Source of the DNA: Tersicoccus phoenicis
GTDB lineage: Bacteria; Actinomycetota; Actinomycetes; Actinomycetales; Micrococcaceae
DNA length: 64,000 bases
Assembly: GCF_001968835.1 (NCBI RefSeq)
Contig: NZ_MRDE01000026.1
Span: 1-64,000 of the forward strand
Reading direction: 5' to 3'
Shown here: positions 28,699 to 34,026 of the stretch, piece by piece
How positions within the stretch are numbered: the stretch's first letter is position 1
Layout of the letters: each line of letters begins with the position of its first letter
Notes under the pieces: model-generated
Told to the model about the DNA's origin: nothing
The model's database searches: none
The model's input: only the letters and a program-made list of their open reading frames with translations
Program-made: the position numbers and the translations under genes

Positions 28699-28805
28699 CC
28701 GGGTCGCCCGGCGTCGAGTGTGCGGTTGGCGCAACCGGGTCGCCCGGCGTCGAGTGTGCGGTTGGCGCAACCGGGTCGCCCGGCGTCGAGTGTGCGGTTG
28801 GCGCA
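28699..28805. repeat. 36-bp tandem repeat array (three copies) with internal palindromes
   Basis: Two exact 36-bp units (28699-28734, 28735-28770) and a third complete to 35 bp (28771-28805). Each unit has two hairpin-forming palindromes: CCGGGTCGCCCGG at its start and CGGTTGGCGCAACCG across its end. An inverted copy of the unit core, CGCACACTCG, occurs at 28834-28843. The array starts 8 nt after the phosphatase stop and ends before the convergent SatD-like gene, so it may act as a transcription terminator. Confidence 0.92.
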
Positions 28806-30182: not shown

Positions 30183-30377
30183 GGTCTTCCTCCGGGAGGC
30201 TCGGGGCCGATGCCGCCCGACAGGATGGCACCGGTAGGACTGGTACCACGATAGTTCAGCGTCGATCGACGACGGCGTGACGTGGTTGTCAGCGTCGAGC
30301 CGCGGCGGTGGACCTCCACGGCCGGATCGCCCGGGGGTCCGGCCGGCCCCCGCGTTCAGGTGTGCCAAGCTGAGGGC

Positions 30378-30866
30378 ATGCCGGAGCCTCGCAGTACGGA
30401 CGAGAAGATCGCCGAACAGGAGAAGATCTACGGCCAGAGCCTCGCCGACCGGTTCGGGACCGTGATGAGCCACTACGGGATCTCCAACCGGCGGCTGGCC
30501 GCGGTGCTGGGCATCTCCGCGCCGATGCTCTCGCAGCTCAGCTCCGGTCAGCGGATCAAGATCGGCAACCCCGTGGTGCAGGAACGACTGCTGATGCTGG
30601 AGCGGGACATGGCCTCGACCATGGACCCCGCACTCATTCTTGAGCGGGTCGCCGCGTCGCAGCCGGTCGCGACGCCGACGGCCGGCGTGACCGGCGCCGC
30701 CCGGTCATCCGCTTCGGGGCGGGCCGGGGCGGTGGACCGCGACGCCGTCGTCGGCCACCTGCGCAGCGCGGCCGATCGTTCGGCCCTCAACGCTGCCGCC
30801 GACGCCGCCGGCCCGGGCGCACTGGCGGACCTGCTCCGCGACGCGGCTCGCCCCGGCACCCGGTAG
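30378..30866 (+). CDS. XRE-like helix-turn-helix DNA-binding protein
   Basis: 162 aa. Residues 20-75 are an [23 protein letters not shown], then [20 protein letters not shown]. The remainder is alanine-rich with no recognised domain; conserved actinobacterial proteins share this plan. ATG 30378 lies 6 nt after CAAGCT. Target genes unknown; divergent from ppa. Confidence 0.78.
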
Positions 30867-30878
30867 CCCTCCCAGCTC

Positions 30879-30970
30879 GCTCGCGCCAGGGCCCGAACAG
30901 TGGCTCCGTTCTCTGGGCCAGGGCGCTGGAGCCCGCACACTGGCCTCACTGGTGAGGCCAGTGTGCGGGC
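30879..30970. repeat. Palindromic intergenic repeat, copy A
   Basis: Bases 30879-30935 align without gaps to 32639-32695 (48 of 57 identical). Directly after, 30931-30970 is a near-perfect palindrome with 19-bp arms (GCCCGCACACTGGCCTCAC and its complement) around 2 nt. It lies between the XRE gene and the hydrolase promoter and would form very stable hairpins in DNA or RNA. Confidence 0.88.
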
Positions 30971-31002
30971 ACGGTCGACCATGGACAGCGCTGGAACTTC
31001 TT

Positions 31003-31033
31003 ACTACACTTGTAGTGTTACTACTGTCGTAGT
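31003..31033 (+). promoter_or_regulatory. Tandem TetR-type operators upstream of the hydrolase gene
   Basis: Two palindromes, ACTACA-CT-TGTAGT (31003-31016) and ACTAC-TGTC-GTAGT (31020-31033), centred 17 bp apart, sit just upstream of the hydrolase ribosome site in an AT-rich patch. Repeated short palindromes at this position are typical TetR binding sites, and a TetR gene follows the hydrolase. Confidence 0.65.
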
Positions 31034-31057
31034 GGCGACCACGAGGAGGAGGCCATG

Positions 31058-31996
31058 ATGAACGGTGCATCCGCTCACAGCGAACGCGAGGATCCTCGCG
31101 AGCCGGTCGAGGCACCCGGCGATCCGACGGCCTGGTCGCCTCCGCTTCCGGCGGCACCCGGCTTCGACCATAGGGTCGTCCAGACCGCGGGCCTGCGCAC
31201 CCACGTCGCCACGATCGGCCCTGAGAACGGCGATCCCGTCCTGCTCCTGCACGGATTCCCGCTGCACTGGTGGCAGTGGCGCGAGGTCGCGCCTCGGCTC
31301 GCCGCCGCGGGATACCGCGTGATCTGTCCCGACCTGCGCGGGTGCGGGTGGACCGAGGACGACGGCCGGCGGTACGACCGGGAGATATTCCTGCGCGACC
31401 TGGTGGCGCTGCTCGACGTCTGCGAACTCGACCGCCCGCGCGTCGTCGCGCACGATCTCGGCGCGATCCCCACGTGGCAGCTCAGCTACGCGCACCCCGA
31501 ACGCGTGCGCGCGGCGGTGCTGCTCAGCGTCCCCCCGGGCTTCGCGTTCGGCCCACAGCTGGCCCCCGCGATGACGCACATGCCGAAGTTCGCGTTCCAC
31601 CGACGCGGCCACTCACTGCGCTGGCTGTGGAACGGCAGGTATCACACTCGACCGGTGCCGGACGCCGTGATCGACAGGTACCTTGCTCCCCTGCAGGACC
31701 CAGCGAAGGATGCCGCCGTGACCAAGCTGTACCGCGCAGTGGCGATCCCCGAGGGCATGACGCTCGCCGGAGGCGCCTACAAGTGCACCCGCCTGCGTCC
31801 GCCGACACTGTTCCTCTTCGGCGCGCTCGACGAACCGATCACCGAGAAGCGCATCCGGAGGCTGGCCGGCGACACCGCCCGGTACGCCGAGCACGTCGAG
31901 TTCGCATCCGTGGACGGAGCGAAGCACTTCATGACCGACGACGCGCCCGAGCGGGTGACCGCGCTCGTGGCCGACTTCCTCGGGCGGGTGGCGTGA
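31058..31996 (+). CDS. Alpha/beta hydrolase, epoxide-hydrolase-like
   Basis: 312 aa. LLLHGFPLHWWQW is the oxyanion-hole HGxP motif. The nucleophile elbow AHDLGA has Asp, as in epoxide hydrolases and haloalkane dehalogenases, rather than Ser. FLFGALDEPITEKRI supplies the acid and GAKHFMTDDAPE the His. An ester-opening or epoxide-opening role is likely; the substrate is unknown. GAGGAGGAGG upstream favours ATG 31058 (5-nt spacing) over ATG 31055. Controlled by tandem palindromes, probably through the TetR protein downstream. Confidence 0.85.
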   Translation: MNGASAHSEREDPREPVEAPGDPTAWSPPLPAAPGFDHRVVQTAGLRTHVATIGPENGDPVLLLHGFPLHWWQWREVAPRLAAAGYRVICPDLRGCGWTEDDGRRYDREIFLRDLVALLDVCELDRPRVVAHDLGAIPTWQLSYAHPERVRAAVLLSVPPGFAFGPQLAPAMTHMPKFAFHRRGHSLRWLWNGRYHTRPVPDAVIDRYLAPLQDPAKDAAVTKLYRAVAIPEGMTLAGGAYKCTRLRPPTLFLFGALDEPITEKRIRRLAGDTARYAEHVEFASVDGAKHFMTDDAPERVTALVADFLGRVA

Positions 31997-32063
31997 CGCG
32001 TACGGGCCACGTCGAAGCACCTCACGTCGGAGAGAACCCGCACCTCACGAGTACCGTCGAGGG

Positions 32064-32612
32064 GTGAGTACGACACGGGAACGAGCCCTGGACGCGGCGC
32101 TCGCGCTCGTCGGTGAACAGGGGATCCGGTCGCTCACGCACGCACGGGTCGACGAGCGCGCGGGCTTGCCGAAGGGCTCGACGTCGAACTGGTTCCGCAC
32201 CAGGGACGCCCTCCTGGCCGGAGTCGTCGCCTGGCTCGCCGAGCGCGAACGGGCGGACTTCGCCGCGGCCGACGCTCCGCTCATCGAGACGGCCGACCAA
32301 CTCGTCGACGCGCTCAGCGGCATGATCGCGGCGCAGACCGGGCCCCTGGCGGCGCGCACCCGCGCCCGTTTCGCGCTCTTCGTCGAGGGCGCGGGCGACG
32401 CCGACCTGCTCGCCCCGCTCCTGCACCAGCGCGCCGTGTTCGTCGAGTGGACGACGGGCCTCCTCGACGCCATCGGAGCACGCCCGGCCCCCGGCGCCGT
32501 TCGCACCCTGATGGCCGCGGCGGACGGACTCGTGCTGCACCGCGTGACGATCGACCCGGACGCCGAGATCCGGCCGGTGATCGAACGCGCCGTGCGCGCG
32601 TGCCTGGACTGA
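32064..32612 (+). CDS. TetR-family transcriptional regulator
   Basis: 182 aa. N-terminal HTH: ALDAALALVGEQGIRSLTHA, RVDERAGLPKGSTSNWFRTR; the rest is a helical ligand-binding and dimer domain. GTG 32064 lies 6 nt after TACCGT (leaderless type), so it has its own promoter in addition to possible read-through from the hydrolase gene 67 bp upstream. Likely represses the hydrolase through the paired palindromes at 31003-31033 (inference). Confidence 0.87.
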   Translation: MSTTRERALDAALALVGEQGIRSLTHARVDERAGLPKGSTSNWFRTRDALLAGVVAWLAERERADFAAADAPLIETADQLVDALSGMIAAQTGPLAARTRARFALFVEGAGDADLLAPLLHQRAVFVEWTTGLLDAIGARPAPGAVRTLMAAADGLVLHRVTIDPDAEIRPVIERAVRACLD

Positions 32613-32638
32613 TTGCCGCCCAACAGGCGCACGCCACC

Positions 32639-32730
32639 GCTCGCACCAGAGCCCGAACAGCGGCTACGCTGTTCGGGCCAGAGCGCTGGAGCCCGAATAG
32701 TGGGCTCCATGTTTGGGCCGGAGTGCGAGC
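32639..32730. repeat. Palindromic intergenic repeat, copy B
   Basis: 32639-32695 is the second copy of the repeat at 30879-30935. It contains a perfect palindrome, GCCCGAACAGCG-GCTA-CGCTGTTCGGGC (32651-32678). A degenerate second unit, GGAGCCCGAATAGTGGGCTCC and onward, follows at about 32689-32719. Together A and B flank the hydrolase and TetR genes in direct orientation. The rest of the 265-bp gap, to 32877, shows nothing else. Confidence 0.88.
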
Positions 32731-32877
32731 CCGGCGGCCAGGGTCGCCGTTCAGTGGGCGCGCCAGGGAAGCCGGTGACCGGCTGCCCGCTCACCGGCGT
32801 GCCCCAAGGACCCACGCCGTCGGTGAACGCAGCCCCACGCCCAGGGGTCCGTCAGAGGCATGTGGTCGAATGTTCCC

Positions 32878-34026
32878 ATGAGCCTCACCTCGTCCCGTCT
32901 ACGCGGCCTGGTCGACTGGGACCTCGCCGCCGGTACCGCCGCCAAGCTCGCCCCCGCCGGTCCGCGCGTCAGTCCGACCCGGATGCGCGCCACCGTGGAC
33001 AGCCTCCGGGAGGCCGCCGACGCCTCCGTCGCTCACGTGCACGAGATCAGCCGACTGGACGCCGCGGCGGACCTGAGGGATTCCGCCGTCCTTGTCGTCG
33101 ACCGGGCCACCTGGTCGCGGGCGAACACGCAGAGCTTCTCGGTGCTCATGCAGCCGGCACTGGACCGCCTGGTCGAGACCCGCGGTCAGGCGCTCACCGC
33201 GGCGACCGCGGCCCTCGGCGGGCGACTCACCGGCGTGCAGCTGGGCACCATCCTGTCCTTCCTCTCCAGCAAGGTGCTCGGCCAGTACGACCCGTTCGCC
33301 GCGCTCGCCCCGGGATCCACCGCACCGCCGGCAGGTCGCTTGCTGCTCGTGGCGCCGAACGTGCTCGAGGTCGAACGGGAACTGAACGTCGAGTCCGCCG
33401 ACTTCCGGCTCTGGGTCTGCCTGCACGAGCAGACCCACCGCGTGCAGTTCGCCGCGGCGCCCTGGCTCCGCGGACACATGATCGAACAGATCGGTCGGCT
33501 CTCCGAGTCCATGGTGGACAAGGCCGACACCTTCGCCGCGCGGATCGCCGAGGCGGCCCGCTCCGTCGGCTCCGGGCGACTGACCGGCGCCGCGGGCACC
33601 CCCGCGCGAACGGACGGATCAGGCGGGTCCGGCGTCGGCCTGCTCGGGATCTTCCAGGACGAGCAGGAACGGCAGATCTTCTCCCACCTGACCGCCGTGA
33701 TGAGCCTGCTCGAGGGGCACGCGAACGTCGTGATGGACGGTGTGGACGCCTCGATCGTGCCCACCGTGCGGACCATCCGGCAGCGGTTCAACGCCCGCGG
33801 CGCCAGTCGCAGCGGCCTGGAGAAGCTGATCCGCCAGCTGCTCGGCCTGGACGCCAAGATGCGCCAGTACAGTGACGGATCACGGTTCGTCCGCGGGGTC
33901 GTGGAGCAGGTCGGCCTCGACGGGTTCAACCGGATCTGGGACGCCCCCGACCAGCTGCCCACCGAGCAGGAGATCCACCACCCCGGGGACTGGGTCGCCC
34001 GGATGGGCCTGTCCGGCCGGCGCTGA
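32878..34026 (+). CDS. DUF2342-family zinc-dependent metalloprotease
   Basis: 382-aa protein conserved in actinobacteria, annotated as a zinc metalloprotease and sometimes as F420-biosynthesis associated. The metal site is the HExxH variant LWVCLHEQTHRVQF with a downstream LLEGHANVVMDGVD providing the third ligand. The N-terminal DWDLAAGTAAKLAPAGPRVS is a family marker. ATG 32878 (MSLTSSRL) is chosen over a start six codons upstream. It occupies its usual place before tilS-hpt-ftsH. Substrate unknown. Confidence 0.85.
   Translation: MSLTSSRLRGLVDWDLAAGTAAKLAPAGPRVSPTRMRATVDSLREAADASVAHVHEISRLDAAADLRDSAVLVVDRATWSRANTQSFSVLMQPALDRLVETRGQALTAATAALGGRLTGVQLGTILSFLSSKVLGQYDPFAALAPGSTAPPAGRLLLVAPNVLEVERELNVESADFRLWVCLHEQTHRVQFAAAPWLRGHMIEQIGRLSESMVDKADTFAARIAEAARSVGSGRLTGAAGTPARTDGSGGSGVGLLGIFQDEQERQIFSHLTAVMSLLEGHANVVMDGVDASIVPTVRTIRQRFNARGASRSGLEKLIRQLLGLDAKMRQYSDGSRFVRGVVEQVGLDGFNRIWDAPDQLPTEQEIHHPGDWVARMGLSGRR

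Follow-up and report, generated by a model that had tools for sequence, protein, structure and literature searches.

Dispersed 90-nt double palindromes at gene junctions of Tersicoccus, two of which bracket a hydrolase/TetR gene pair

Introduction

The BIMEs of Escherichia coli are palindromes in alternating orientation that occupy intergenic sites and occur in arrays (general background, for which PMC2817692 is a partial source). As described in the excerpted text of PMC3116915, the REPINs of Pseudomonas fluorescens SBW25 are REP doublets forming hairpins, i.e., short extragenic doublets of inverted palindromes, with doublets outnumbering singlets and some tandem clusters; they are accompanied by specific RAYT transposases and reach hundreds of copies. 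GTAG- and CGTC-tagged REPs are, in the excerpted text of PMC3733652, palindromic and frequent downstream of coding regions, and the CGTC REPs, according to that text, have no transposase of their own, which is a precedent for orphan palindromic repeats. In the same excerpts (PMC3733652, PMC3116915), REP-type repeats are usually discussed with a dedicated RAYT and mostly in Proteobacteria, and the strings actinobact-, micrococc- and arthrobacter are absent from the text of PMC3733652. Given that RepRanger (PMC12306157) presents, in its excerpted text, counts of predicted elements for Arthrobacter livingstonensis, palindromes are to be expected in Micrococcaceae. Among the papers listed for palindromic or intergenic repeats in Arthrobacter and Micrococcaceae, no description of the 90-nt element family was found.

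A sequence-only reading of one stretch of DNA had drawn attention to two direct copies of a palindromic repeat around a hydrolase gene and a tetR gene, and proposed either a REP-like element family that seeded recombination or the ends of a mobilized cassette. This stretch (the window, i.e., positions 1 to 64,000 of contig NZ_MRDE01000026.1, 64,000 nt) belongs to Tersicoccus phoenicis, a cleanroom bacterium. The family presented below is new, and of a known general sort.

Results

The locus in the window

The features of the locus are presented in Table 1. The gapless match between 30879-30935 and 32639-32695, with 48 of 57 positions identical, was confirmed, and the repeat is longer than 57 bp: 30878-30974 and 32638-32734 are 77% identical over 97 nt, and the search of the organism's own genome with the repeat yielded E=2.4e-15, far beyond chance. 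As had been read, the copies bracket exactly the hydrolase and TetR genes, copy 1 starting 13 bp past the XRE stop codon and copy 2 starting 27 bp past that of tetR. The further palindromic unit noted behind each copy is present as well, but it belongs to the 90-nt element itself, as its second hairpin.

Table 1. Coordinates of the features at the hydrolase/tetR locus, in positions of the window.
Feature	Position	Strand	Remarks
XRE-like gene	30378..30866	+	left neighbor; conserved in Bi-70; T. solisilvae contig begins inside it
Element copy 1	30880..30969	none	90-nt double-hairpin repeat; 67.1 bits with model R1
Second hairpin of copy 1	30931..30970	none	perfect 19-bp inverted repeat, 30931-30949/30952-30970, 2-nt loop
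Promoter-like site TGGACA-17-TACACT	30982..31010	+	downstream of copy 1; consensus match only
Operator-like dyad ACTACACTTGTAGT	31003..31016	none	overlaps -10
Second operator-like dyad ACTACTGTCGTAGT	31020..31033	none	upstream of the hydrolase gene
Alpha/beta hydrolase gene (Abhydrolase_1)	31055..31996	+	313 aa
TetR-family regulator gene (TetR_N, TetR_C_31)	32064..32612	+	182 aa
Element copy 2	32640..32729	none	90-nt double-hairpin repeat; 91.3 bits with model R1
DUF2342 (Zincin_2) gene	32878..34026	+	right neighbor; family-conserved

Both copies fold more stably than their shuffles (z of -4.1 and -4.6), and Rfam yielded no match at E<=1 in window positions 30300-33000. The arm of the second hairpin of copy 1 is the longest perfect arm among the 23 full copies of the genome; this hairpin is a perfect palindrome in copy 1 and in none of the other 22, as might result from template-switch correction of a quasi-palindrome. 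Elsewhere in the window, a perfect 36-bp unit occurs three times at 28699-28805, directly behind the 3' end of a HAD-like gene, and constitutes a 3'-end repeat outside the 90-nt family.

One promoter-like site was found upstream of the hydrolase gene (0.1 expected), together with the two operator-like dyads, in line with the earlier statement that the cassette carries its own operators. Similar dyads (by eye; L199, L204, L208) stand beside homologous pairs in other genera, where hydrolase and tetR homologues adjoin, mostly divergently and without elements. Given these like dyads and the lack of elements, hydrolase/tetR is a self-contained pair, probably a self-regulated accessory operon, whose TetR protein would control the unit. 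None of the homologues elsewhere is flanked by elements, nor was the unit found elsewhere with its elements, and neither of the two congeners has the hydrolase at E<=1e-50. Relatives with both genes but no repeats are among the findings that the sequence-only reading had listed against itself. A foreign composition of the cassette was considered and rejected, the GC and GC3 of both genes being within ~1.5 SD of those of the window genes.

The locus in relatives

In Tersicoccus sp. Bi-70, DUF2342 directly follows the XRE-like gene, and in T. solisilvae the contig begins inside this gene and runs straight into DUF2342; neither hydrolase, tetR nor an element is present at the XRE-DUF2342 junction of these two genomes. 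Among 80 relatives, the order ppa-dac-DUF2342 is found in 76 (one scan), while the others comprise Bi-70, with XRE added, and three loci that are cut short or variant; hydrolase plus tetR occurs at this locus in none of the 80, several of which are short upstream. Hence, the claim that the cassette lies between XRE and a conserved DUF2342 block stands as to position, but the conserved family order is ppa-dac-DUF2342, to which XRE itself has been added. The XRE-like gene, which has no Pfam match and owes its name to the sequence-only reading, is found at this place upstream of DUF2342 only in Tersicoccus among the 80 loci. The dac gene, which we take from its neighbors to be a D-alanyl-D-alanine carboxypeptidase-like gene and which is present here in most of the 80 relatives, is absent between ppa and XRE in T. 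phoenicis (window 30183-30377; L060 3844-5301). An Arthrobacter-like DUF2342 protein is also encoded on a contig deposited under Vibrio cholerae 35D; this assembly is probably contaminated.

The element family

The T. phoenicis genome (3,209,563 bases in 132 contigs) was searched with either window copy, which yielded ~24 places. The repeat is thus common, a finding that the sequence-only reading had listed against itself, and the element as the private ends of one cassette is rejected; of the alternatives proposed there, a REP-like family is supported in the form of a dispersed family of intergenic double palindromes. The genome holds 23 full and ~7 half copies, all intergenic, and a strict-filter search yielded 29 matches at E<=0.001, both strands counted. 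The full copies form a gap-free alignment of 90 columns, i.e., the spacing is fixed at 90 nt in 23 of 23. Each consists of a 7-bp outer inverted repeat, CTCGCAC...GTGCGAG, which is of the terminal type seen in MITEs (91.9% of cells paired) and encloses two hairpins, whose arms are GCCCGAACA/TGTTCGGGC, joined by GCGC. Half copies measure 50 nt, and short arrays also occur. Mean identity among the copies is 71% (70.7%; 253 pairs). Of the 92 arms, 84 are within two mismatches of GCCCGAACA.

A covariance model search found the family in all three Tersicoccus genomes, with strong matches in T. phoenicis and variant forms in T. solisilvae, whereas Bi-70 yielded a single clear match, of 43 bits. Among 146 further genomes of Micrococcaceae, one was matched, and the DNA in question reads as a different tandem repeat.

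In comparison with REPINs, the elements are alike in that doublets outnumber singlets, yet they are few and diverged, and Y1_Tnp (PF01797, RAYT) has no match at E<=1 in any of the three Tersicoccus genomes (10 of 14 controls matched). They share with the GTAG and CGTC REPs the palindromic form and the location downstream of genes, but the GTAG tag is at the hairpin foot in none of the 23 copies, and CGTC in two, on one strand only. With BIMEs, which bind gyrase, IHF or Pol I, they share alternating palindromes at intergenic sites and the occurrence in arrays, but the sequences are unrelated. Given the outcome of the GTAG-tag and RAYT tests, the family is not filed under the REPIN/BIME families. 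Inspection of the 6-nt element flanks by eye showed no consistent target duplication, and the aligned empty sites are too dissimilar for a base-exact test.

Within T. phoenicis, covariation under a two-hairpin fold does not exceed that of shuffles, and the same holds for a long-hairpin fold, so the arms are kept as sequence rather than by compensation, as would be expected if a protein recognized the DNA in duplex or single-stranded form. When the eight T. solisilvae copies of exactly 90 nt were added (shorter and longer ones being left out), two-sided changes rose to 21 cells, a value reached by 7 of 500 shuffles. This rise is not relied on, since the aligned rows are related to one another and a palindromic site bound by a protein would act alike; RNA structure proved by covariation is hence rejected. 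An intrinsic terminator is rejected too: a T tract (at least 5 T in 8) follows the element at 0 of 46 ends, and nothing terminator-like is found at the cassette.

Placement of the copies

In stretches that are 88% coding, with genes predicted by a simple codon-usage finder, not one of the 24 places reaches more than 30 bp into a gene. Seventeen of the 24 are at most 70 bp from a gene 3' end, where 7.4 are expected and none of 5000 randomizations was as high; the 70-bp limit was picked after the distances had been seen. At co-oriented junctions, 11 of 14 elements are closer to the 3' end (p=0.03), and convergent junctions are in excess (7 versus 3.4 expected, p=0.04). Given that elements habitually sit behind genes, the bracketing of hydrolase/tetR partly follows.

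Gene content at element sites

Three element pairs lie within 3 kb, versus 0.5 expected (P ~0.016, post hoc), and all three bracket segments absent as a unit from at least one congener. Besides the hydrolase/tetR pair (C54), these are C108:9406/10456, which brackets a gene with AbiEi_4 and REase_MTES_1575 matches, and C96:133782/136484, which brackets PhdYeFM, PIN, RES and GNAT genes that are absent in both congeners. The C108 gene is kept in T. solisilvae (69% at DNA level) with an element on each side; Bi-70 is without the gene and both elements, and its outer flanks abut within ~2 bp (BLAST coordinates). The C96 island is toxin-antitoxin-like, with PhdYeFM twice, PIN, RES and GNAT (L185 9208-11404). 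Integron attC sites, whose core is RYYYAAC, are likewise palindromic and next to small accessory genes, e.g., toxin-antitoxin modules; the Tersicoccus elements, however, are dispersed, and their arm CCCGAAC does not fit this core.

Bracket partners rank 36, 127 and 2 of 253 in identity. The last rank is that of the C96 elements, which are near-sisters (86% identical), and the notion of partners as sister elements holds for these alone. At all five informative empty sites (C54 in two genomes, C96 in two, C108 in Bi-70), whose edges are not base-exact, both the segment and the elements are missing; the insertion point cannot be read base-exactly because the intergenic DNA is too diverged. The sequence-only reading had looked to relatives for an empty site with a single copy, and these sites hold zero.

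Spacing relative to Bi-70 differs by more than 500 bp (a limit set by the analyst) in 11 of 22 element intervals, or 10 of 21 sites, the C108 pair forming two rows by interval and one site in the per-site test. In comparison, 17 of 101 element-free control intervals changed when these were required to span 100 bp or more, and 21 of 215 when every size was admitted, which gives p=0.0018 by interval and 0.007 by site against the stricter control. With the three brackets left out, 7 of 18 changed (p=0.05 versus the stricter control, 0.002 versus the wider), five of these seven having extra DNA in Bi-70, and gene content was unchanged at 11 of the 18 single-element sites. Genes of at least 300 bp were compared by tblastn to 24 Bi-70 stretches plus L060, with unmapped genes skipped, and a changed interval places the change somewhere between two mapped genes and not necessarily at the element (the interval at C101:27676 exceeds 5 kb).

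That the repeat be unrelated to gene content, which the sequence-only reading had also listed against itself, is thus not borne out. The elements may fairly be read as markers of junctions with gene turnover; the polarity of gain or loss is not settled by the tree of the three Tersicoccus, which has a support of 53. That the repeats seeded recombination is suggested by the enrichment of element junctions for gene-content change, but only suggested, given that recombination between repeats would leave one copy and the empty sites have none.

Explanations

The best explanation is that the elements form a REPIN/BIME-like family, restricted to the genus, of short double palindromes between genes. 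More specifically, we give a probability of roughly 0.66 to a RAYT-less REPIN-like family that marks permissive gene junctions and does not form cassette ends. Such elements would have spread as a DNA unit long ago, by means of an enzyme since lost or unrecognized; as the search for a mobilizing enzyme, which covered Y1_Tnp, found none, it is by analogy that they may be called mobile. They may persist at permissive gene junctions, and turnover or conversion may keep the copies of one species similar. The hydrolase/tetR pair would have been gained (or kept) independently at one such junction, and the bracketing would be apparent, one element following XRE and the other tetR.

The proposal that the elements are ends of a mobilized cassette fared less well, given that most element sites have no cassette, the two copies are 77% alike and homologues pair without repeats, and yet it retains some probability because all three close pairs bracket accessory segments. 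Stated generally, elements would be the recognized ends of small units that some recombinase, or else homologous recombination between elements, moves, which we regard as unlikely. The three segments missing from at least one congener (hydrolase/tetR, AbiEi/REase and the C96 island) and the higher rate of change at element sites than at controls speak for it, as do the near-sister C96 elements, which a one-event bracket predicts, and the excess of close pairs, which the permissive-junction reading sets down to coincidence and permissive sites. However, deletion between repeats would leave one element where five of five empty sites have none, sister relationship is not the rule among bracket partners, and a lone element without a cassette is the usual state of a site. 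At five of the changed sites the additional DNA is in Bi-70, and no consistent target duplication is evident by eye in the 6-nt flanks. We hold it quite improbable that Tersicoccus has a whole cassette system in which 90-nt palindromes bound accessory units (toxin-antitoxin, AbiEi/REase, hydrolase/TetR) that some enzyme moves as element-gene-element blocks into and out of chosen gene junctions, conversion among copies keeping the boundary sequence of each species uniform at the shared sites.

Placement and folding invite a functional account, in which tandem hairpins, recruited to the 3' ends of chosen genes, terminate transcription, insulate units or stabilize mRNA ends. The 3'-end bias and convergent excess, the stable folds and an outer stem that changes on both sides across two species speak for it, but T tracts and within-species covariation are lacking, and orthologous gene ends in Bi-70 do without elements, one with ~24 bp between convergent aligned blocks; it is rather unlikely as the main cause. 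The four alternating GCCCGAACA half sites could form a binding-site array for a nucleoid or regulatory protein, kept by sequence-specific binding to duplex DNA. Although the conserved arms, kept as sequence and not by compensation, and the invariant 90-nt spacing agree with this, REP elements recognized by a transposase would look alike, the two species differ in the outer arms, and Bi-70 is almost without elements, which leaves such arrays very improbable.

Two things make the family of interest: elements persist at shared gene junctions with altered sequences, and genes come and go there. The case combines, in an actinobacterial genus without RAYT, an exact unit length, places common to two species, sequences that differ by species and an association with the gain and loss of genes, and the almost element-free Bi-70 offers a natural comparison for how repeats persist without RAYT and for whether they steer gene flux.

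Shared sites and changing sequence

In the fetched T. solisilvae stretches, with coordinates matched by hand, eight of ten element places correspond to gene junctions that also hold an element in T. phoenicis. The Bi-70 counterparts mostly have no element left, with one weak match at the C80 site. The elements of T. phoenicis and T. solisilvae differ in their outer arms. Pairs at shared sites are 59-72% identical, in comparison with a between-species mean of 64.8% and an average of 70.7% among the T. phoenicis copies themselves; vertical descent of the element sequences is hence rejected, as shared-site pairs (0.59-0.72) are no better than random between-species ones (0.648). Shared sites with diverged sequence would reflect either homogenization within species, refilling of the same sites, or saturation of the free positions.

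Two T. solisilvae contigs, C12 (L243 1-370) and C11 (L247 1-180), end in an element array that would join them. Given such contig ends, arrays seem to break assemblies in Tersicoccus.
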